DNA from: Parerythrobacter lacustris
GTDB taxonomy: Bacteria > Pseudomonadota > Alphaproteobacteria > Sphingomonadales > Sphingomonadaceae
Reading direction: 5' to 3'
Length of the DNA: 64,000 nt
Assembly (NCBI RefSeq): GCF_024626475.1
Contig: NZ_JANKHH010000002.1
Coordinates: 1 to 64,000, forward strand
Under the pieces are notes generated by a model that had not been told where the DNA came from, did no database searches, and saw nothing but the letters and a program-made list of their open reading frames with translations. The translations under genes and the position numbers were made by a program. Positions 47,225 through 57,385 of the stretch are shown piece after piece; the first letter of the stretch is position 1, and each line of letters opens with the position of its first letter.

Positions 47225-47310
47225 GGACAGGTGGCCGAGTGGTTAAAGGCAGCAGACTGTAAATCTGCCCGCGCAAGCGTACGCTGGTTCGAATCCAGCC
47301 CTGTCCACCA
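47225..47310 (+). tRNA. tRNA-Tyr (anticodon GTA)
   Basis: An 86-base type II tRNA with a long variable arm. The acceptor is GGACAGG/CCTGTCC, the anticodon region is CTGTAAAT and the T arm is CTGGTTCGAATCCAG. The 3' CCA is encoded (47308-47310). Anticodon GTA reads both tyrosine codons. Confidence 0.97.
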
Positions 47311-47602: not shown

Positions 47603-48577
47603 ATGAAACGTGAACTCATATCGCTCGAACGTGCGGTCGCCGCCTCCCTGCTGCTTGCGCTGCCAGTCTCGGCTAGTGCAGCAGGGGTCGATGCCGGCAC
47701 CCTGATCGAAAACACCGCCACCGCGACTTACGACGCGGGCGAAGGACCGACGACGATCAATTCGAATACGGTGACGCTGAAAGTCGACGAACTGCTCGAC
47801 GTCACCGTATCGTCGCTCGACTCCGGTCCGATCGGGGCAACGCCCGGATCGGTGGTCCTGACTTTCGAAATCACGAACACGGGTAATGGCCCGGAAGCCT
47901 ACACACTCACCGCCAATCCTGCGGTTGGAGGGAACGACTTTGACACGGCGATCGACGGTATCGCCGTCGATAGCAACGGCAACGGTGTTTACGATCCCGG
48001 CATCGACCAGATCCTGACCGGGCCGGAAACGACCGCGTTGCTCGATCCGGACGAGAACCTCACGGTCTTCGTCCTCGCCACCGTCCCTCCGACGGTCGTC
48101 GATGGTGACCAATCCACGGTCGATCTGCGCGCCGATGCCGTAACCGGAACCGGGGCGCCCGGTACGACCTTTGCTGGCCAGGGCGTTGACGGCAGCGACG
48201 CCGTGGTCGGCGCAGGCGGTGCGTCGGACAATGCGACCGGCTCGCTGATCGTCGGCATCACCACCGTCGACCTGACCAAGTCCGCCACGGTTGCGGATCC
48301 CTTCGGCGGGACCAGCACGGTTCCCGGCTCCACCATCACCTATACCATCACAGCGGTCGTCTCCGGCAGCGGATCGGTCAGCGGGCTGGTCGTCTCCGAC
48401 GTCATACCGGCCGGCACCACCTATCGCACCGGAACACTCGCGCTCGACAGCTCTGCGCTGACCGACGCGAGCGGCGACGATGCCGGCGAGGCTTCGGCCA
48501 GCGGCATCAGCGTCGATCTCGGCACGGTCGCTGGCGGTTCGAGCCACGCCGTCACCTTCGAAGTCAGCATCGACTGA
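47603..48577 (+). CDS. Secreted DUF11-type surface protein
   Basis: A 324-residue exported protein, the first of a five-gene surface cluster. The signal peptide ends near residue 26 (PVSASAAG). A beta module follows with TLIENTATATYDAGEG and SNTVTLKVDELLDVTV, seen again in two neighbours. The C-terminal half is a DUF11 domain (Ig-like fold): TVPGSTITYTITAVVSGSG and VVSDVIPAGTTYRTGTL. The protein ends in a beta strand, VTFEVSID. No anchor is visible, so it is either released or held by the outer membrane. The ATG at 47603 was chosen because it begins the signal peptide region. Confidence 0.82.
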   Translation: MKRELISLERAVAASLLLALPVSASAAGVDAGTLIENTATATYDAGEGPTTINSNTVTLKVDELLDVTVSSLDSGPIGATPGSVVLTFEITNTGNGPEAYTLTANPAVGGNDFDTAIDGIAVDSNGNGVYDPGIDQILTGPETTALLDPDENLTVFVLATVPPTVVDGDQSTVDLRADAVTGTGAPGTTFAGQGVDGSDAVVGAGGASDNATGSLIVGITTVDLTKSATVADPFGGTSTVPGSTITYTITAVVSGSGSVSGLVVSDVIPAGTTYRTGTLALDSSALTDASGDDAGEASASGISVDLGTVAGGSSHAVTFEVSID

Positions 48578-48608
48578 ACGTGAAATAACAACACCAAGGG
48601 TCTGAAAA

Positions 48609-49085
48609 ATGGCATTCCTTCTGAAGATTTTAGCACCTGCCCTGTCGCTGGCACTCTTCGCTGGTCCGACGGTTGCCCAAGAGATGCCGATCTCGATCGA
48701 GGTCGATCTGAAGCTCGAGAAGTCTGTTGTCGATGCAGATGGCAACTCGCGCGTCGAGAGGGTCGAGCCGGATTTGATCGTACCAGGCGATCGGTTGGTT
48801 TTCGGCAGGATCTATCGGAACAGTGGCCCGGAAGCTGTCCCGAATTTCGTCGTAACGAGCCCCGTATCCAGCGCAGTCCGTCTCGCGCCCGATGCCGATC
48901 CCTCGCTGGTCGTCTCGGTCGACGGCGGCAAGAGCTGGGGCGTGCTCTCCGCTCTGACAGTCGCAGCCGAAGACGGTAGCGCACGGCCCGCCGACCATGC
49001 CGATGTCACCCATGTCCGTTGGACGCTGGCGATGGTCGCGCCCGGCGAGACCGGACGGCTCGAGTTTCCCGCAATCATCCGCTGA
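48609..49085 (+). CDS. Small secreted beta-rich protein in the surface cluster
   Basis: A 158-residue exported protein, 31 bp after the first DUF11 gene. The signal peptide ends near residue 24 (TVAQ). The mature part is one beta-sandwich-like domain (ISIEVDLKLEKSVVDADGN, VPGDRLVFGRIYRNSGPEAV) resembling a shortened DUF11 domain without the usual NxGP-type linker. It ends in LEFPAIIR, a strand-like tail similar to those of its neighbours. Function unknown. Confidence 0.78.
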   Translation: MAFLLKILAPALSLALFAGPTVAQEMPISIEVDLKLEKSVVDADGNSRVERVEPDLIVPGDRLVFGRIYRNSGPEAVPNFVVTSPVSSAVRLAPDADPSLVVSVDGGKSWGVLSALTVAAEDGSARPADHADVTHVRWTLAMVAPGETGRLEFPAIIR

Positions 49086-49156
49086 CCAGCGGAAGGTAAC
49101 CGCCAAGCCATCCGGGCGGCAACTTACGCGGATGGTAGACAAAGAGGACCAAACCG

Positions 49157-50182
49157 ATGACACACCGCAAGCAATTGCTGGGGGCAGTAAGCGCATTTGC
49201 GCTCATTGCGTTTACCTCCAGCCCAGTGCTGGCAGCGGGCACCGCTGCCGGCAGTTCCATTACCAACAATGTTTCCGTCTCCTTCGATGTGGGTGGCGTG
49301 ACGCAGACTGCCGTTACCGACGATGACACCTTCACGGTCGACCGCAGGGTCGATGTGACGGTTGCCGAAGTCGGCGGTGCGGCGACCAGCGTCGCACCGG
49401 GCTCGACCGCGCAGGCGACCACCTTCCAGGTGACCAACCTGTCCAACGACACGGTCGATTTCAACCTGTCGCTGGTGCAGTCGGCGACCGACGATTTCGA
49501 TATTGTCAGCCCCGTGTTCTACCTCGACGACGGCGACGGCGTGTTCGATGCCGGCGACACCATTGTCACCTACCTCGATGAAATCGCTGCAGATGCATCC
49601 GTGGTTGTCCATGTGGTGGGCAATATTCCGATCACGGCAACCAACGGCCAGACTGCGGACGTGACACTCGTCGCCGATGCGCATGCCGGCGGTTCGGCCA
49701 GTGCGCTGGGTACCGAACTCACCGCAACTGCCGGTGCTAACACCGCCGGGGTCGATACCGTGCTCGCCGATGCCGCGGCTTCGGGCGATGACGGTGCGAA
49801 CCAGGGCGACCACGCCGATACCGACAGCTACGTCGTTGCCGGTGCAGTTGTCACCGTGTCGAAGACCAGCTCGATCATCGAAGATCCGGTGAACGGGACG
49901 ACCAACCCGAAAGCCATTCCGGGTGCAACGATCCAGTACTGCATTACCGTGTCGAACGCTTCGGGCGCGGCAACGGCCACCGACGTTGCCGTCAACGACG
50001 TGCTTCCGGCCGATGTCAGCTATCTTGCAGCCTTCGGTATCTTCGTGGACGGCGACGCGTCGTGCGCCAGCGGGGTTGCAGGTGGCACGTACGACGGAGG
50101 CACGCATGAAATCGATGCGAGCCTGAGCGACATCGCGGCGACCGAGACTCGCTCGGTCTACTTCCGCGTAACCATCGACTGA
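49157..50182 (+). CDS. Secreted DUF11-type surface protein
   Basis: A 341-residue exported protein. The signal peptide ends near residue 27 (SPVLAAG). The N-terminal module SSITNNVSVSFDVGG...TFTVDRRVDVTV parallels that of the gene at 47603. The middle region has a run of Asp-rich strands. The DUF11 domain (about 225-335) includes SSIIEDPVNGTTNPKAIPGA, also found in the gene at 55277. It ends in VYFRVTID. Duplication from a common ancestor with the first gene is likely. Confidence 0.82.
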   Translation: MTHRKQLLGAVSAFALIAFTSSPVLAAGTAAGSSITNNVSVSFDVGGVTQTAVTDDDTFTVDRRVDVTVAEVGGAATSVAPGSTAQATTFQVTNLSNDTVDFNLSLVQSATDDFDIVSPVFYLDDGDGVFDAGDTIVTYLDEIAADASVVVHVVGNIPITATNGQTADVTLVADAHAGGSASALGTELTATAGANTAGVDTVLADAAASGDDGANQGDHADTDSYVVAGAVVTVSKTSSIIEDPVNGTTNPKAIPGATIQYCITVSNASGAATATDVAVNDVLPADVSYLAAFGIFVDGDASCASGVAGGTYDGGTHEIDASLSDIAATETRSVYFRVTID

Positions 50183-50203
50183 TAGTCGGCGGATTGAATA
50201 CCG

Positions 50204-53200
50204 GTGCGTAGGCACCCCTCTTTGCGCGAATGGGCAGCAGCACTCTTGCTAGTGCTGCTGCCATTCGTCGTGCCCGGGGCGGCCAGCGCACAAACCATTA
50301 CCAATATTGCCGAAGCCAGGTGGACATTCCAGGGTACCGAGTTTGCGACCGCGTCGAACACGGTCACGCTCCAGGTCGCTGAATCTCCCCCTGAAATACG
50401 TACCTTCAGGCCTTCGCCTGGCAGTGGGTCGGATATTTCCTACTCACCTACACGGTGCGGCAACCAGTCGATCACTGCCACCGGCGCATCGGCGGGACAG
50501 GTCGTCACTTCCGTGACCGAGACATCGGTGCTGACGGCCGGGCAGACGCTGATCTTCCAGATCCGCGCCGCGGCAGCCAATCTCGATCCGGGCGCAGTCG
50601 ACCAACTTTCCGTTATCGTCGAAACTTCGGCCGGCGACCGGGAAGAACTGGTCATTTTCGAGACCGGGCCGGACTCGGGAGTTTTTGTGGGGGCCATTCC
50701 CACTGTCCGGATGCCGCCCATGCCCACCACAAGCGATTGCCGTCTGAGCATCGCCGACGGTCAGACGATCGGCATTTCGGCGCTCCAGCCCGGCGGTACC
50801 GCAACGATTGTCCACGCCGATGTCGAGGTTCTGGCCGATCCCTTCGGTGTGGTGTTCGACAGCGAAACCGGCGAGCCGGTTTCCGGCGCAGTCGTCTCGC
50901 TGGTCAATGCAGCGACCGGGCAGCCCGCAACCGTTTTCGCCGAGGATGGTGTAACCTCCTGGCCCTCAACCGTTATTTCCGGCCAGTCGATCACCGACGG
51001 GGCGGGTAATGCCTACCTTATGGGCGCAGGGGAGTACTGGTTCCCGTTGACCGCGCTCGGGACCTATCGCCTGACCATCCAGCCACCGACGCCCTACACC
51101 GCGCCGTCGATCGTTCAGCCGCCGCAGCTTGCAACGCTGACGCGGCCCGACGGGCGGCCGTTTATCATCGTTGACGGATCTTACGGCGGTACATTCCAGC
51201 TCAGCGACCCCACTCCGGTCCAGATCGACATACCGCTCGATCGGCCCAGCCTCGCCGTCAGCCTGAGCAAGACCGCGTCGCGCGCCTCGGCGCAGCCGGG
51301 CGATGTGGTGTTCTATAGCATTACCGTACGCAACCAGGATGCCGGACGGGTCAAGCGCGGTGTCACCGTCGCCGACAGCCCGTCGCGCTGGTTGCGTTTG
51401 CGGACGGATTCGGTGCGCATCGACGGTGTGGCGGATCCCGCTGCCGTCTCGACTTCGCCCGACGGTTCGCTGCTGACCTTCAGCCTGGGCGACATCGCCG
51501 GTGGCCAGAGCAAGCGCGTGACCTATGCGATGGTCGTGCGCGCCGATGCCCCTCCGGGCCAGGCGGTGAACCGCGCCGATGCAACCGACTCGCTGGGCCG
51601 GATGGCGACCGCTTCGGCCTCTGTCGCAATCGAGCGGGAAACCATTGCCGGTCGGATGACGATCATCGGCCGCGTAACGGCGGGGGCCTGCAGCCTGACT
51701 GAACCACGCATCGGCATCCCCGGCGTGCGGGTGATGATGGAAGACGGCAGCTTCGCGGTCACCGATGCCGACGGTCGCTATCATTTCGAAGGCGTGGTGC
51801 CGGGCACGCATGTGGTCCAAGCCTCGCGCATGACGCTGCCCGAAGGCGGCGAGTTCGTCGATTGCCACCGCTCCACCCGCAGCGCGGGCAGCGCGATTTC
51901 GCGCTTCGTGACCGGGCAGGGCGGATCGCTTGCCGTGGCGGATTTCCATGCCACCGTGTCTGAAGCCTATCTGGCAGAGCTGTCGGCGCAGAAGCCGGGC
52001 GATGCCGCCGAAGCACCGCAGGATGCCGAAGCAAGAACCGACGCACCATCTGAGGCTTCGGCCCCCGCCCCGGATACGGACTGGTTGGCGCTGGGCGACG
52101 GCCCGGACGGCTGGCTGACCCCGGAGATCGGCCCGAACCCGCGCGCTCCCGCGATCCGCGTCGCAATCCGCCACCGCAAGGGGCAGACCATTGCCTTGCG
52201 CGTCGACGGCAAGCCGGTCGACCCGCTCGCATTCGACGGCACCCGCAGTTCCGAAAAGGGCAAATACGCTGTCAGCATGTGGCGCGGGGTTCCGCTGGTG
52301 AACGAACGCACCGTTCTGAGCGCCGACATCATCAACTCCTTCGGCGAGATCAACGAGACGATCACCCGCGAAGTGTTCTTCACCACCACCCCGGCGAAGG
52401 TCGAGCTGGTCGAAAGCAAGTCGAACCTCGTTGCCGACGGGAAGACCAGGCCGGTGGTCGCAATCCGCGTGCTCGATCGCAACAACCGCCCGCTGCGCGA
52501 AGGCGTTTCGGGTGATTTCACGCTCGGTGCGCCATACCAGAGCGCCGAACAGCTCAAGCGCCAGCAGCTTAACCAGCTGACCGGCCTCGGCACCTCCTCC
52601 GCGCGGTGGGTGATCGAGGGCGACGAGGGCATCGCCCTGATCGAACTCGCACCGACGATGGTCAGCGGCTCGCTGCGGCTCGACTTCCGCTTCGATGACG
52701 GCGAGATCGCCCGCCAGCAGGAACTGGAGGCGTGGATCGTCCCGGGTGACATCGAATGGACCGTGATCGGTCTGGCCGAAGGGTCGGTCGGGGCACGCAC
52801 CGTGGCGGACAACATGGAACGCAGCGGCCGGTTCGACAGCGATCTGGGCGACAATGCACGTGTCGCGCTCTATGCCAAGGGCCGGGTGCTCGGGAAATAC
52901 CTCGTCACGCTCGCCTACGACAGCGCCAAGCAGCGCGACGACCAGCGTGTGCTCGGCGCGCTCGATCCCGATGCCTACTACACCGTGTTTGCCGATGGTT
53001 CGAGCCGCCGCTTCGATGCGGCGTCGCGCGAGAAGCTCTATGTCCGCATCGAAACCGCGACCTTCTACGCGCTCTACGGCGACTTCGAGACCGGCTTCGA
53101 CCAGACCCGGCTCGCCCGCTACAACCGCACCGCGACCGGGGTGAAGGCCGAAGGGCGCTTCGGTGCCGTGCACGCGGAGGGTTTCGCGGCCGAGATCGCC

Positions 53201-55267
53201 ACGCGCTTCCGCCGCGACGAGATCCAGGGGCAGGGCATTACCGGTCCCTACCGCCTCGGCAGCCGCGCGATCGTGGCGAACAGCGAGAAGGTCACGCTCG
53301 AAGTGCGTGACCGTTTCCGTTCGGAGCTGGTCGTTTCGTCGACGCAGCTTACGCGTTTCATCGACTACGACATCGACCTGCTGTCGGGCACGATCACCTT
53401 CAAGCAGCCGATCCTCAGCCGCGACTTCGACCTCAATCCGCAATTCATCGTGATCGATTACGAGATCGACACGCTGGCCGGCGGCGAGTGGAACGCTGGT
53501 CTGCGCGCCGACTGGACCGACCGCAGCGGCAGGATCCGCATCGGCGCGACGGCGATTTCGGACAAGGGCGAGGGCGCGCGCACCGATATGGGCGCGGTCG
53601 ATCTGCGGGCGAAGCTCGGAAATTCGACCGAAATCCGCGCCGAGCTCGCGCTGAGCCGCAGCGAGGGCGAGACCGCAAACGGCTGGCTGGTCGAGGCGCA
53701 GCACCAGACCGGCAAGCTCGACGTACTGGCCTATGCCCGCTCGCTCGATGCCGATTACGGCGTGGGCCAGCAGAACGGCGCGGAACTGGGGCGGCGCAAG
53801 TTCGGGGTCGATGCACGGGTCAAGCTCGACGAGCACCTCTCGATCCTCGCCAGCACCTGGCAAGATGACAGCCTGACCGACGACGCCCGCCGCCGCGCTG
53901 CGCAAGTGCAGTTGGGCTACACCTCGAAGAACACCGACCTGCGGGTCGGGCTGGCACACTTCAACGATCGCTTGCCCGATGGTTCGCGCAACACCTCGAC
54001 CGTGATCGAAGGCGGCGCGACCCAGCGCCTGTTCGACAACAAGTTGGAGCTGAGCGCCAGCACCAGCCTGGCGCTCGACGATGCGGAATCGGTCGATCTG
54101 CCCGAGCGGCACCAGTTCGGCATGCGCTATGCGATCAGCCCCAATGTGCGGCTGGTCGGGCTATACGAGATTGCCAATGGCGAGAACATCGACGCGCGCA
54201 CCCTGCGCGGCGGGGTCGAAGTCACGCCGTGGTCGGGTGCCAAAGTCGTGTCCGCGCTCGGCAAGCAGCGGATCGACGAGAATGGCGATCGCAGCTTTGC
54301 CGCCTTCGGACTTTCGCAATCGCTGCAGGTCTCGCCCTCGCTGACGCTCGACATGACCGTCGACGGAAGCCGCACAATCGGCGGCGGCGGCCCGGTCGGC
54401 GATATCGTCAACCCTGCGCAGCCGGTTTCGAGCGGCGGCCACCTGGGCCAGGACGGCACGCTGTTCGAGGACTTCACCGCTGTCACCCTCGGCGCAGCCT
54501 GGCGCAAGGACCGGTGGAGCGCGACCGCACGCGGCGAGTATCGCGATGGCGAATTCGCCGATCGCAAGGGCTTCACCTTCGGCGCAATCCGCCAGCTCGG
54601 CGAGGGCAGCGTGGTCGGCTCGGGCTTTACCTGGACCAAGGCGAACGGCGAGAATTCGGCATCGACGGAGATTCTCGATGCAGCCATCGCCTTTGCGCAT
54701 CGCCCCGACGATTCCGAATTCGCCCTGCTCGGCAAGCTCGAGTTCCGCAGCGATATCGTGACCAATGCAGTCGCCGGGGAAACGGGGCCGAGCGGTCGGA
54801 CCGCGCTGCTGATCGACGGCGACGCGAAGTCGCAGCGCCTGATTGCCAGCCTTTCGACCAACTGGTCGCCGCGCGGGATCGACGATGACGGCAACCAGTA
54901 TCGCCGTGACGAATATGGCCTGTTCGTTGGCGCGCGCTACAATTTCGACCGCTTCGAAGGCTTCGACCTGTCGGGCACTTCGCTGCTCGCGGGCGGCGAG
55001 GCAAGGATCGGCATCGGTGAAAAGTTCGAGATCGGCGTTATCGGCACCGTTCGCGCCAACCTCGAAGACGATGTGACCAGCTACTCCTACGGTCCGCAGA
55101 TTGGATTCACCCCGGCCAAGGGCGTGCTGCTGACGGTGGGCTACAACATCGAAGGCTTCCACGACGAGGATTTCTCGGCTTCGCGCAACACCGACGACGG
55201 GATCTACGCTTCGGTCCGGCTGAAGTTCGATGCGGACAGCTTCCGCTTCCTCGGCCTCGGGCGCTAG
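50204..55267 (+). CDS. 1687-residue outer-membrane protein with Ig/DUF11 modules and a C-terminal barrel-like region
   Basis: The largest gene in the window. The signal peptide ends near residue 29 (PGAASAQ). The N-terminal module (about 30-60; ITNIAEARWTFQGTEF) matches that of the small DUF11 proteins. Further beta domains follow, then a DUF11 domain (about 345-475; RASAQPGDVVFYSITVRNQD) and a carboxypeptidase-regulatory-like domain (about 486-553; GIPGVRVMMEDGSFAVTDADG). An Asp/Pro-rich linker leads to a region (about 600-850) with Ig-like strands. From about 850 the sequence has alternating strands (KYLVTLAYDS, FYALYGDFETGF) up to RLKFDADSFRFLGLGR, resembling an outer-membrane barrel. It starts at a GTG 21 bp after the previous gene. 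A role as exporter or anchor for the neighbouring proteins is inference. Confidence 0.85.
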   Translation: MRRHPSLREWAAALLLVLLPFVVPGAASAQTITNIAEARWTFQGTEFATASNTVTLQVAESPPEIRTFRPSPGSGSDISYSPTRCGNQSITATGASAGQVVTSVTETSVLTAGQTLIFQIRAAAANLDPGAVDQLSVIVETSAGDREELVIFETGPDSGVFVGAIPTVRMPPMPTTSDCRLSIADGQTIGISALQPGGTATIVHADVEVLADPFGVVFDSETGEPVSGAVVSLVNAATGQPATVFAEDGVTSWPSTVISGQSITDGAGNAYLMGAGEYWFPLTALGTYRLTIQPPTPYTAPSIVQPPQLATLTRPDGRPFIIVDGSYGGTFQLSDPTPVQIDIPLDRPSLAVSLSKTASRASAQPGDVVFYSITVRNQDAGRVKRGVTVADSPSRWLRLRTDSVRIDGVADPAAVSTSPDGSLLTFSLGDIAGGQSKRVTYAMVVRADAPPGQAVNRADATDSLGRMATASASVAIERETIAGRMTIIGRVTAGACSLTEPRIGIPGVRVMMEDGSFAVTDADGRYHFEGVVPGTHVVQASRMTLPEGGEFVDCHRSTRSAGSAISRFVTGQGGSLAVADFHATVSEAYLAELSAQKPGDAAEAPQDAEARTDAPSEASAPAPDTDWLALGDGPDGWLTPEIGPNPRAPAIRVAIRHRKGQTIALRVDGKPVDPLAFDGTRSSEKGKYAVSMWRGVPLVNERTVLSADIINSFGEINETITREVFFTTTPAKVELVESKSNLVADGKTRPVVAIRVLDRNNRPLREGVSGDFTLGAPYQSAEQLKRQQLNQLTGLGTSSARWVIEGDEGIALIELAPTMVSGSLRLDFRFDDGEIARQQELEAWIVPGDIEWTVIGLAEGSVGARTVADNMERSGRFDSDLGDNARVALYAKGRVLGKYLVTLAYDSAKQRDDQRVLGALDPDAYYTVFADGSSRRFDAASREKLYVRIETATFYALYGDFETGFDQTRLARYNRTATGVKAEGRFGAVHAEGFAAEIATRFRRDEIQGQGITGPYRLGSRAIVANSEKVTLEVRDRFRSELVVSSTQLTRFIDYDIDLLSGTITFKQPILSRDFDLNPQFIVIDYEIDTLAGGEWNAGLRADWTDRSGRIRIGATAISDKGEGARTDMGAVDLRAKLGNSTEIRAELALSRSEGETANGWLVEAQHQTGKLDVLAYARSLDADYGVGQQNGAELGRRKFGVDARVKLDEHLSILASTWQDDSLTDDARRRAAQVQLGYTSKNTDLRVGLAHFNDRLPDGSRNTSTVIEGGATQRLFDNKLELSASTSLALDDAESVDLPERHQFGMRYAISPNVRLVGLYEIANGENIDARTLRGGVEVTPWSGAKVVSALGKQRIDENGDRSFAAFGLSQSLQVSPSLTLDMTVDGSRTIGGGGPVGDIVNPAQPVSSGGHLGQDGTLFEDFTAVTLGAAWRKDRWSATARGEYRDGEFADRKGFTFGAIRQLGEGSVVGSGFTWTKANGENSASTEILDAAIAFAHRPDDSEFALLGKLEFRSDIVTNAVAGETGPSGRTALLIDGDAKSQRLIASLSTNWSPRGIDDDGNQYRRDEYGLFVGARYNFDRFEGFDLSGTSLLAGGEARIGIGEKFEIGVIGTVRANLEDDVTSYSYGPQIGFTPAKGVLLTVGYNIEGFHDEDFSASRNTDDGIYASVRLKFDADSFRFLGLGR

Positions 55268-55276
55268 GCACAGTCG

Positions 55277-57385
55277 ATGACCCAGCCGTTTATCCCTAAC
55301 TCGCCATTAACCATCATGCGCTATCGGCCCGATATGGGCAGCAATTTCGATCGTGCGGATCTCGTCGGCCATGCAGCAAGGCTCATTTGCGCCTTGCTCG
55401 CATGCCTTGCCGCATTGCTCGGATCGCCGGCGTTGGCGCAGACCACGACGACCTATTCGAATGCGACCACCGGGACGATCAACAACACGACCACTTGCAC
55501 GGCTCCCCTGGTACGCAATTTCACCGTGGGGACGAGCTACACGGTAACCGACGTGAATCTCGGGGTTCTTGTGACCCACACCTGGCGCGGTGATTTGCAG
55601 ATAACGCTGGAGTCTCCCGCTGGCACGCGCGTGCAGTTGGTCAATGGCGATACGAATACGATCAGCGGCGACAATTTCAACGTCCTGCTCGACGATGCTG
55701 CGGTGCAGGTCGTGAATACCGATAGCCCGACCGGAAACCATTCGACGACGGCGCCGCCCTACCAGAACACTTTCAGCCCCAACAATCCGCTGTCTGCCTT
55801 CAACGGTGAGAACTCCGCCGGAACCTGGCGGCTCGAGATCTGCGACCTGTTTCCCTCGGCCGACAACGGTTCGTTCCGCCGGGCGGATCTCTATCTTACC
55901 TCGCCGCCGCCGGCATTTGCCGACCTGTCGCTGACCAAGACGCTGATCGGTGCCGCTCCGAGCAATGGGGGGACGGTGACCTGGCGCCTTTCGGCCACGA
56001 ATGCGTCCGGCTCGCCCAACACCGCGACCGGCGTAGTGGTGCGGGACTACCTGCCTGCGGGCTTCACCTTTGTATCCGCATCGGGTTCGGGCACGTTCAA
56101 TTCGGCGACCGGGGACTGGACGGTTGGCTCGCTGACTCCGGGGCAAACCAGGACGATCGATATCGTCGGGACGATCACCGCGACGGCAGGGGCAACGATC
56201 ACCAACAATGCCGAGATAACCGCGAGCAGTATAGGCGACAGCGATTCGACCGTGAACAACGGCATCACCAGCGAGGACGACTATGCGACCTCAAGCTTCG
56301 TCGTCGCGGGGACGCGCACGGCGGGTACACCACCGACGTTGTTCTGCCCCAACGGCACAATCCTGTTCGACTGGGACACCAGGACCTGGACAGCGGGAAG
56401 CACCAGCAACAGCTATGCGCTGGGTTCGCTCGGAAACGCGAATTTCGTACTCACCAACCCGGGAACATGGCTCAACAACGCGGGACTTGGGGGGCAATCG
56501 CCGAACCTGCAGAACATTGTCACGGGGGGGCTCAGTCCGGCGCAGAACTCGTTGATCCAGCTGGTCGACCTGCCCAACCAGAGCTCGGTGGTCACGACGA
56601 CGATTACATTGCCTCGGGTTATGGCCGGCGCGCAATTTTCGGTGTTCGATGTCGACTTTGGGGCAGCCCAGTTTGCCGACCGCATCACCGTGCGCGGATC
56701 GCTGCGGGGTACGACCGTCTTGCCGACGCTGACCAATGGCGTGGCCAATTATGTGATCGGGAATTCCGCCTATGGCGATCTTGCCTCGGACAACACGTCA
56801 GCCAACGGCAATCTGACGGTGACGTTCTCCAGCGCGATCGACACGATCATCATCGAATACGGCAACCATTCGCTCGCCCCGGCCAATCCCGGCCAGCAGG
56901 CGATTTCGATCCACGACATCAATTTCTGCCTGCCTTACACCACGCTGTCGGTGACCAAGACCAGCGCGGTCATCTCGAACCCGATCGAGGGTGCGACCAA
57001 TGCCAAGGCCATTCCGGGCGCGTTGATCGAATACATCATCGCGGTCTCGAACACCGGCGACAGCTCGGCCGATACCGGCACCGTGTTCGTACGCGATAAT
57101 GCCCCTGCCGATGCCAAGCTGTGCCTGACCACCTACGGTGCGGGCGGGCCGGTGCAATTTACCGACGGTAGCCCGACCTCCGGGCTGACCTATAGTTATA
57201 CGAACCTGTCCTCGGCGACCGACAATCTCGAGTTCTCGTCCGACGGAGGCAGCACATGGACCTATGTGCCGGTGCCCGATGCGGATGGATGCGATGCGGC
57301 AATAACCAACTTCCGCATCCGGCCGGGCGGGACATTTGCACCGGCGACAGGCTTCACGCTAAGGGCGCGCTTCCGGGTCGAATAG
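55277..57385 (+). CDS. Exported protein with P-domain-like and DUF11 domains
   Basis: A 702-residue protein, 9 bp after the giant gene. The hydrophobic signal sequence ends near residue 55 (SPALAQ), so the start may be at a later ATG (55316 or 55334) rather than 55277. Residues about 60-210 resemble a proprotein-convertase P domain (TYTVTDVNLGVLVTHTWRGDL and AGTWRLEICDLFPSADNG). A DUF11 domain follows (about 215-330). The C-terminal third contains SAVISNPIEGATNAKAIPGA, close to the DUF11 unit of the gene at 49157, and ends in LRARFRVE. No protease domain accompanies the P domain. It is the last gene of the cluster. Confidence 0.82.
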   Translation: MTQPFIPNSPLTIMRYRPDMGSNFDRADLVGHAARLICALLACLAALLGSPALAQTTTTYSNATTGTINNTTTCTAPLVRNFTVGTSYTVTDVNLGVLVTHTWRGDLQITLESPAGTRVQLVNGDTNTISGDNFNVLLDDAAVQVVNTDSPTGNHSTTAPPYQNTFSPNNPLSAFNGENSAGTWRLEICDLFPSADNGSFRRADLYLTSPPPAFADLSLTKTLIGAAPSNGGTVTWRLSATNASGSPNTATGVVVRDYLPAGFTFVSASGSGTFNSATGDWTVGSLTPGQTRTIDIVGTITATAGATITNNAEITASSIGDSDSTVNNGITSEDDYATSSFVVAGTRTAGTPPTLFCPNGTILFDWDTRTWTAGSTSNSYALGSLGNANFVLTNPGTWLNNAGLGGQSPNLQNIVTGGLSPAQNSLIQLVDLPNQSSVVTTTITLPRVMAGAQFSVFDVDFGAAQFADRITVRGSLRGTTVLPTLTNGVANYVIGNSAYGDLASDNTSANGNLTVTFSSAIDTIIIEYGNHSLAPANPGQQAISIHDINFCLPYTTLSVTKTSAVISNPIEGATNAKAIPGALIEYIIAVSNTGDSSADTGTVFVRDNAPADAKLCLTTYGAGGPVQFTDGSPTSGLTYSYTNLSSATDNLEFSSDGGSTWTYVPVPDADGCDAAITNFRIRPGGTFAPATGFTLRARFRVE

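Follow-up and report, generated by a model that had tools for sequence, protein, structure and literature searches.

Split DUF11 domains in a five-gene cluster of Parerythrobacter lacustris suggest a donor-strand-linked surface fibre

Five consecutive forward-strand genes, here called g1 to g5, occupy positions 47603 to 57385 of a 64,000-nucleotide stretch of Parerythrobacter lacustris DNA (NCBI RefSeq assembly GCF_024626475.1, contig NZ_JANKHH010000002.1, positions 1 to 64,000; hereafter the window). We propose, with a probability of slightly under 60%, that this operon encodes a surface fibre linked by donor strands. Each small subunit would contribute an acceptor immunoglobulin-like (Ig-like) domain of the DUF11 or CLIPPER family without its last strand, g1, g3 and g4 would supply an N-terminal donor, and the N-terminal strand of one subunit would enter the open groove of the next. 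With acceptors of the g1/g3 and g5 types, the acceptor's Lys and Asp and the incoming donor Asn could then form an intersubunit isopeptide bond spontaneously, the split pair working like a natural SpyTag/SpyCatcher. The adhesin-like P-domain protein g5 and/or g2 would lie at the tip, g1 and g3 would form the shaft, and g4 would be the base, where its donor strand would cap the chain and its large outer-membrane barrel would anchor it and might pass subunits. Neither an usher nor a PapD-type chaperone nor a sortase would be required, and the probable role would be attachment, aggregation or matrix formation.

Results

A preliminary description of this DNA had read the five genes as a closely spaced same-strand set of exported proteins, and this is borne out: all are open reading frames (ORFs) on the + strand, separated by 31, 71, 21 and 9 bp, and all have signal-peptide-like N-termini (judged by eye, without SignalP), in which no lipobox was seen by eye. 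The 324-residue g1 product (47603..48577) is an exported subunit with a putative N-terminal donor strand, a middle Ig-like domain and a C-terminal acceptor DUF11 domain that lacks the last strand, and g3 (49157..50182, 341 residues) is its paralogue, again with donor and acceptor. Between them, g2 (48609..49085, 158 residues) encodes a small acceptor-only DUF11-like protein with neither a donor strand nor the conserved isopeptide Lys/Asp pair. The giant g4 (50204..55267, 1687 residues, GTG start) is donor-only and has a predicted outer-membrane barrel, and g5 (55277..57385, 702 residues), the proposed tip, is a modular acceptor-only protein with a P-domain, a complete DUF11 domain and a C-terminal acceptor DUF11. 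Calcium-binding-like loops occur in g1 (DSNGNGVYDPGID) and, in a shorter form, in g3 (DDGDGVFDAGD).

In profile searches TIGR01451, a DUF11-type repeat, scored above its cut-off in g1, g3, g4 and g5; the Pfam matches were DUF11 and CarboxypepD_reg in g4, and P_proprotein and DUF11 in g5. Against the curated PF01345 cut-off of 24.6 bits, g4 (27.6) and g5 (89.2) were both above. The g1 result was mixed, with 20.9 bits for the protein and 25.3 bits in a genome search whose matching stretch extended past the g1 stop, and g3 reached 34 bits in the genome search yet gave no match in hmmscan of the protein. The preliminary description had g2 as a small beta protein, and g2 itself indeed has no profile match, yet it is DUF11-like through its family: at E<=0.1, PF01345 matches 24 of the 28 relatives aligned. 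The whole genome holds six PF01345 matches: all four above the cut-off lie within the g1–g5 cluster, and of the remaining, weaker two one is in g5 and the other, of 12.1 bits, is on another contig.

Acceptor domains without a last strand

The structure of DUF11, determined in 2025, showed it to be an isopeptide domain of the CnaA-like kind, since renamed CLIPPER; this structure (9IFR, Acinetobacter silvestris) is reported to have a Lys715-Asp748-Asn806 triad within one chain (PMC12617251). The g4 profile matches the 9IFR sequence (E 1.2e-6), and the internal DUF11 domain of g4 (51239..51655) is complete. Conservation was followed in 199 genomes drawn from the Sphingomonadaceae, and the surroundings of 55 g4 genes were taken as loci (L034–L088). 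Alignment A1 was made from 33 g4 sequences out of 56, A2 from 29 of g1, A3 from 28 of g2, A4 from 28 of g3 and A5 from 32 of g4. The full triad of the internal g4 domain, Lys356, Asp391 and Asn456, is kept at each position in 56 of 56 rows.

When the C-terminal domains of the smaller proteins were aligned with this g4 domain by hhalign, the matches (E 1.7e-12 for g1, 2e-10 for g3 and 3e-8 for g2) stopped at columns 100, 100 and 101, respectively, of 139, with the triad Asn at column 111. The proteins end where the alignment stops, and the Asn-bearing last strand is absent from the DUF11 domains of g1, g2 and g3. Counted from a reference column of the last strand, the C-terminus has a nearly fixed position, lying 5–6 residues after that column in 53 of 55 g1 proteins, four after it in all 56 g2 proteins and five after it in 53 of 56 g3 proteins. 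The acceptor domain of g1 (48254..48574; Lys226, Asp266) stops after the penultimate strand, and its Lys and Asp are each kept in all 54 rows that have no gap there (a further row is gapped); in that of g3 (49838..50179; Lys236, Asp281) Lys is kept in 56/56 and Asp in 55/56. The g5 acceptor domain (56942..57382), which ends in FRVE, gave a weak DUF11 match covering profile positions 8–57 only. From the sequences there is a strong case that g1, g2, g3 and g5 stop short of the Asn-bearing last strand of a DUF11 (CLIPPER) domain and that the termini are conserved. In 20 further loci, a strand motif stood at the C-terminal end of 48 of 57 cluster ORFs other than g4, vs 4 of 616 control ORFs; this motif was drawn up after such ends had been seen, and one ORF that runs off its contig (L217:12105-18002) was excluded.

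Probable N-terminal donor strands

With cleavage sites judged by eye, the N-terminal regions of mature g1, g3 and g4 contain AGTLIENTATATY, AGSSITNNVSVSF and AQTITNIAEARW, respectively, each a run of alternating small or hydrophobic residues with an Asn, of the type IxNxAxA. In g1 the candidate donor region (47693..47794) runs from AGTLIENTATATY to SNTVTLKVDEL and includes Asn37; those of g3 (49247..49354) and g4 (50288..50383) include Asn37 and Asn34. The Asn is kept in 53/55 rows for g1, 56/56 for g3 and 56/56 for g4, and together with the Lys and Asp of the g1 and g3 acceptors it is 96–100% conserved. The general DUF11 consensus, drawn from other proteins, includes TLTYTATVNATAGGTVTNTAEITAS, preceded by AGQSA. 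The subunit ends resemble the first half of this stretch (FEVSID, FRVTID) and the subunit starts its second half (AGT.I.NTATA).

The permuted domain was scored directly: N-termini were joined to acceptors and compared with 20 shuffles, using a DUF11 profile purged of g1–g4 relatives. Joining lengthened the match from position about 85 of the hidden Markov model (HMM) to about 105–115, with a median gain of 4.3–6.7 bits vs −0.7 to 1.2 for shuffled strands. On g1 acceptors the real strand outscored every one of the 20 shuffles at 44 of 54 loci for g1 donors, 30 of 54 for g3 and 34 of 54 for g4, and on g3 acceptors in 38, 24 and 28 of 55, where about 1 in 21 is expected. Searching for the donor motif by regular expression was discarded as a sole criterion, as 60 of 616 control ORFs matched too and several of the matches in true cluster proteins were signal-peptide accidents. 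The N-terminal strands are likely to be the missing DUF11 strand.

If the strand acts as a strand, pairing of g4, g2 and g5 must be between chains, because g4 has a donor and no open acceptor, and g2 and g5 have an acceptor and no donor. The same distribution, with both elements in g1 and g3, gives the order from tip to base. Judged on these sequence features, strand exchange between chains is likely and a covalent bond between subunits with acceptors of the g1, g3 and g5 type is plausible. The suggestion of a surface-display or matrix system, in which the giant would anchor or export the other proteins, is still conjectural and is better grounded now. The preliminary description did not include the split-DUF11 donor/acceptor architecture, which offers a concrete assembly mechanism, or the relatives in other classes.

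The giant protein and its partners

Residues 620–1687 of g4 were modelled with AlphaFold2 from 32 sequences, with a mean predicted local distance difference test score (pLDDT) of 75.3 and a predicted template modelling score (pTM) of 0.66. By the model's own count, 32 long strands (at least 8 residues each) lie between residues 1079 and 1673, within the predicted β-barrel region (53438..55222), and several more precede them. The top Foldseek and VIA rows were mostly outer-membrane β-barrels (Deinococcus SlpA, LptD, SprA, FimD and porins), the best structural row being FimD (Z 14.1, root-mean-square deviation (rmsd) 10.4, 355 residues aligned). The SprA rows from Foldseek (8gl6, E 1.9e-6; 6h3i, E 1.9e-5) were weak and unspecific, with a template modelling (TM) score of about 0.2, and non-barrels, ApoB100 and an S-layer domain, were also among the Foldseek rows. 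The prediction supports the outer-membrane-type barrel that the preliminary description had supposed at the g4 C-terminus; it resembles a very large barrel, and no specific relative is indicated. Upstream of it, a CarboxypepD_reg/SdrD_B-like module (51713..51829) was matched by profile, SdrD_B falling under its cut-off.

At E<=1 no Pfam match of g4 to the SprA sequence profile (SprA_N) was listed, and none of g1–g5 to autotransporter, intimin, two-partner or type 11 secretion barrels. No fimbrillin profile (type V pili, FimA/Mfa1) matched g1–g5, and PADLOC reported nothing for them. The usher profile PF00577 matched none of g1–g5 and, like the PapD-type chaperone profile PF00345, had no match in the whole genome at E<=0.001, in searches that did find the Escherichia coli controls; other export routes were not searched. 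Export through g4 is speculative.

The P-domain of g5 (PF01483, 55547..55879, E 2.9e-13) was also found on a distant acceptor-only protein (E 1.9e-6, locus L212). In 30 of 55 loci the ORF right after g4, which in many cases overlaps it slightly, is g5-like at least in its C-terminal domain. We then took 10 genomes chosen because g5 is not adjacent to g4: eight have a g5-like gene elsewhere (47–59% identity over the best stretch, six with a P-domain), one has an acceptor-only protein with a different N-terminus, and in one none was seen. g5 is a modular component, and the independent scattering of members in relatives that would refute the preliminary description applies to g5 and not to g1–g4.

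Of the 199 family genomes, 109 have g2-like genes, which are thus more widespread than g1 and g4. A lone one stands outside the cluster in the P. lacustris genome itself (L267:8318-8746, G000:C7:454320-454742), with putative zapA and 5-formyltetrahydrofolate cyclo-ligase genes as neighbours, and it has relatives in family genomes without a strong g4 match. Because of this wide occurrence and the lone copy, a role for g2 as a simple tip is doubtful; alternatively, g2 could be a donor-strand cap or an assembly factor.

Conservation and distribution

The g4 profile matched 71 of 199 family genomes, 63 strongly (E up to 1.6e-252) and eight weakly or partially. The g1 profile matched 65, of which 63 strongly, and the two strong sets are the same 63 genomes, a count that leaves out weak or core-only matches (eight genomes for g4, two for g1). 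All 55 loci contain g2, g3 and g4, and 54 contain g1, which a contig start cuts off in the remaining one; the g1-g2-g3-g4 order and strand are constant and the spacing is similar. Given this order and the coincidence of strong g1 and g4 matches, the g1–g4 cluster is not a chance arrangement. One conserved system with a surface or envelope role, as first suggested, is supported. Among the loci, g1 is broken into two frames in L059, L080 has one additional g3-like gene, and one genome (G014) carries two copies of the cluster (L052 and L054). g4 relatives are present in culturable Erythrobacter, Qipengyuania and Novosphingobium strains.

Related clusters were found in Acinetobacter, Rhodobacterales and other Pseudomonadota. 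In drawn samples, the g4 profile matched 10 of 289 genomes at class level and 54 of 299 at phylum level, many of them in the core only. The wider set comprised 20 stretches, two of which (L226 and L227) come from the window's own family and four of which (L223, L228, L229 and L230) are cut by contig ends, together with three plasmid records. All 18 wider loci with g4 and sufficient upstream sequence have a g2 relative within the cluster (16 of the 20 stretches, plus L031 and L032). An Acinetobacter haemolyticus plasmid encodes g2, a broken g1-like gene, a 2008-residue giant, an OmpA-family protein and a 978-residue acceptor-only protein, and a further related cluster is present in Pacificitalea manganoxidans. 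In two giants of one well-represented family the CarboxypepD/SdrD_B module is followed by an OmpA domain (PF00691, E 1.2e-9 and 7.5e-12), which precedes the C-terminal part and suggests that this region of the giants faces the peptidoglycan.

Two looser groups of proteins were noted alongside these clusters. L091:6443-15371 and L092:788-11888 look like a second, related system of 725–792 residue proteins whose C-terminus is cut within DUF11, some with an N-terminal strand motif, and which adjoin a 740-residue protein and a separate 1430-residue barrel protein, as though g4 had been split in two. In L033, L089, L090 and L093, barrel-type proteins match only the g4 core (about 820–1520 of the profile), and each adjoins a 1460–2770 residue multi-DUF11 protein; the one in L033 is annotated as a TonB-dependent receptor.

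Alternative explanations

Several observations weigh against a fibre assembled as proposed. The g3 and g4 donors top all shuffles in only 24–34 of 54–55 loci. In a sliding control, in which 793 segments of window proteins were joined to the g1 acceptor, the last strand of g4's own DUF11 ranked first, and the N-termini of g4, g3 and g1 ranked 3rd, 24th and 28th. The donor strand is short: a last-strand-only DUF11 profile of 35 columns found no N-termini above shuffled proteins, and hhalign of the N-termini against DUF11 gave E of 0.14 (g1), 0.36 (g3) and 0.27 (g4), where only the g1 and g4 alignments put the Asn in register. As the last strand alone is not found above shuffles, the case for donors is built on conserved residues, on the termini and on the scoring of the permuted domain. 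Acceptors (four) outnumber donors (three), and g2-like genes are also found without g4.

Other points bear on the bond itself. At the Lys position of g2, aligned by eye, there are 22 Lys and 22 Arg in 56 rows, and its Asp position is Ser by hhalign (Asn in the consensus). Among 20 giants beyond the 55 loci, scored by eye, the donor position is Asn in 14, Ser or Thr in four, all of one other family, and ambiguous in two. Together, these substitutions in the giants and the missing pair in g2 mean that any bonding could not be universal. They also favour an account in which strand exchange is non-covalent only, the Asn, Lys and Asp are fold residues from CLIPPER ancestors, and the products form a fixed short complex on g4, such as a tip fibrillum, instead of a polymer, an account that fits the single copies of g1 and g3 and the lack of an evident amplified major pilin. 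We consider it unlikely, as the three residues are so strictly kept in g1 and g3 despite a chain distance of 189–199 residues between Asn and Lys.

A circular permutation is less probable again. g1 and g3 each hold both ends of the split domain and could in principle complement themselves; they would then be monomers with an intramolecular bond that assist the g4 barrel as accessory proteins, in the periplasm or on the surface. The AlphaFold2 model of g1 (pLDDT 88.9, pTM 0.64; signal peptide disordered) is confident for strands 34–44 and 49–60, which would be compatible with such packing. Its alignments with integrin legs start at residues 21–30 (rmsd 8–12 Å) and are a weak hint that the hairpin 34–60 precedes the first domain and projects from it, against self-complementation. 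Of the matches listed for this model, those covering residues 34–60 were weak integrin ones; that the list lacks the solved CLIPPER domain is not evidence for a different fold. Moreover, a permutation is inapplicable to g4, which has a donor only, and to g2 and g5, which have an acceptor only. Finally, it is quite improbable that g4 is mainly a transporter or receptor with surface-exposed Ig-like helpers and not a fibre base: its core (849–1160) does occur in proteins labelled 'TonB-dependent receptor', but no TonB-dependent receptor plug or barrel profile matched g4 at E<=1, and split-domain proteins constantly accompany it.

Comparison with known systems

Chaperone-usher pili (FimD/FimA), which assemble by donor-strand exchange, have subunits without the last Ig strand, an N-terminal donor strand, an acceptor-only tip whose N-terminal part is adhesive and an outer-membrane barrel at the base. 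The g1–g5 system would share an acceptor lacking its last strand, a donor-type N-terminus, an adhesive acceptor-only tip and a barrel base; it differs in the genome's lack of a PapD-type chaperone or usher match, in its Ig family, in the potential covalent bond and in a barrel predicted to be larger. The SprA barrel has 36 strands. SprA, the translocon of type 9 secretion (6h3i, 8gl6), is likewise a very large single-chain outer-membrane barrel, but the g4 match to it is weak and unspecific, there is no SprA profile match, and phylum and partners are different.

CLIPPER fibrillar adhesins (9IFR) share the domain itself: the internal g4 copy has the Lys-Asp-Asn triad and the g1 and g3 acceptors align with it. 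The adhesin domains are reported to be complete and tandem in one chain (PMC12617251), whereas here the domain lacks its Asn-bearing last strand, and g1, g3 and g4 have such a strand at their N-termini. Donor-strand complementation combined with a proposed intersubunit isopeptide bond has a precedent in the archaeal threads of Sulfolobus, where the bond reportedly links Asn57 with the amino group at the N-terminus of subunit n+2 (PMC9715654); here it would join Lys and Asn in a split CnaA domain. The threads are archaeal and have no outer-membrane barrel. SpyTag/SpyCatcher-type pairs likewise come from an isopeptide domain divided in two, with one reactive residue in the tag and its partner in the catcher; they are engineered, and the present split would be natural and CnaA-like. 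DUF11 has also been reported, in a preprint, in a spore-appendage anchor (PMC11952670). Among the matches listed from the open-licence PMC literature, which does not cover bioRxiv, there was no description of the g1–g5 cluster; the matches to 'DUF11 plus outer membrane' were largely unrelated, the top one concerning DUF1194 and others DUF1127.

We place the system among donor-strand-linked fibres as a variant, outside the chaperone-usher family; with a covalent fibre and the export route borne out, it would stand as a separate class. More tentatively, and less probably than the fibre itself, it might be a new class of Gram-negative fibre, found in Alpha- and Gammaproteobacteria, in which naturally split CLIPPER domains are joined by donor-strand exchange and Lys-Asn welds with no chaperone, usher or sortase. 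A dedicated outer-membrane barrel, about as large as SprA, would then serve both for their export and as their anchor, and the tip adhesins, encoded in cis or trans, would be interchangeable. If true, a Gram-negative fibre system would unite strand exchange with a self-forming covalent bond, proteobacterial DUF11 proteins, mostly without an assigned role, would gain an assembly mechanism, and protein engineering would gain a natural split-domain pair for covalent coupling.

Genomic context

Upstream of g1–g5 lie genes for HU, a SpoU-type rRNA methylase and tRNA-Tyr (47225..47310, + strand, 293 bp before g1 and outside the system), and downstream an acyl-carrier-protein synthase III-like gene, a phosphatidylserine decarboxylase and a CDP-alcohol phosphatidyltransferase. 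With housekeeping neighbours on both sides, the envelope operon is placed between housekeeping genes. Six other neighbours in the window (HU, lon, rRNA methylase, synthase III-like, psd and pssA) recur in only 3 of 55 loci, HU at lower identity and, in one, psd/pssA on the opposite strand. Att-like or integration repeats were sought in the window at the tRNA-Tyr end and none was seen; integrases were not searched. Counting the window and 54 loci, a tRNA gene lies at most 2.5 kb upstream of g1 in 30 of 55 and at most 4 kb after g4 in 11 of 55. These tRNAs vary (Tyr, Pro, Met, Thr, Ser, Val, Asp and Leu), and tRNA-Asp is common to a large group of loci, perhaps by descent.

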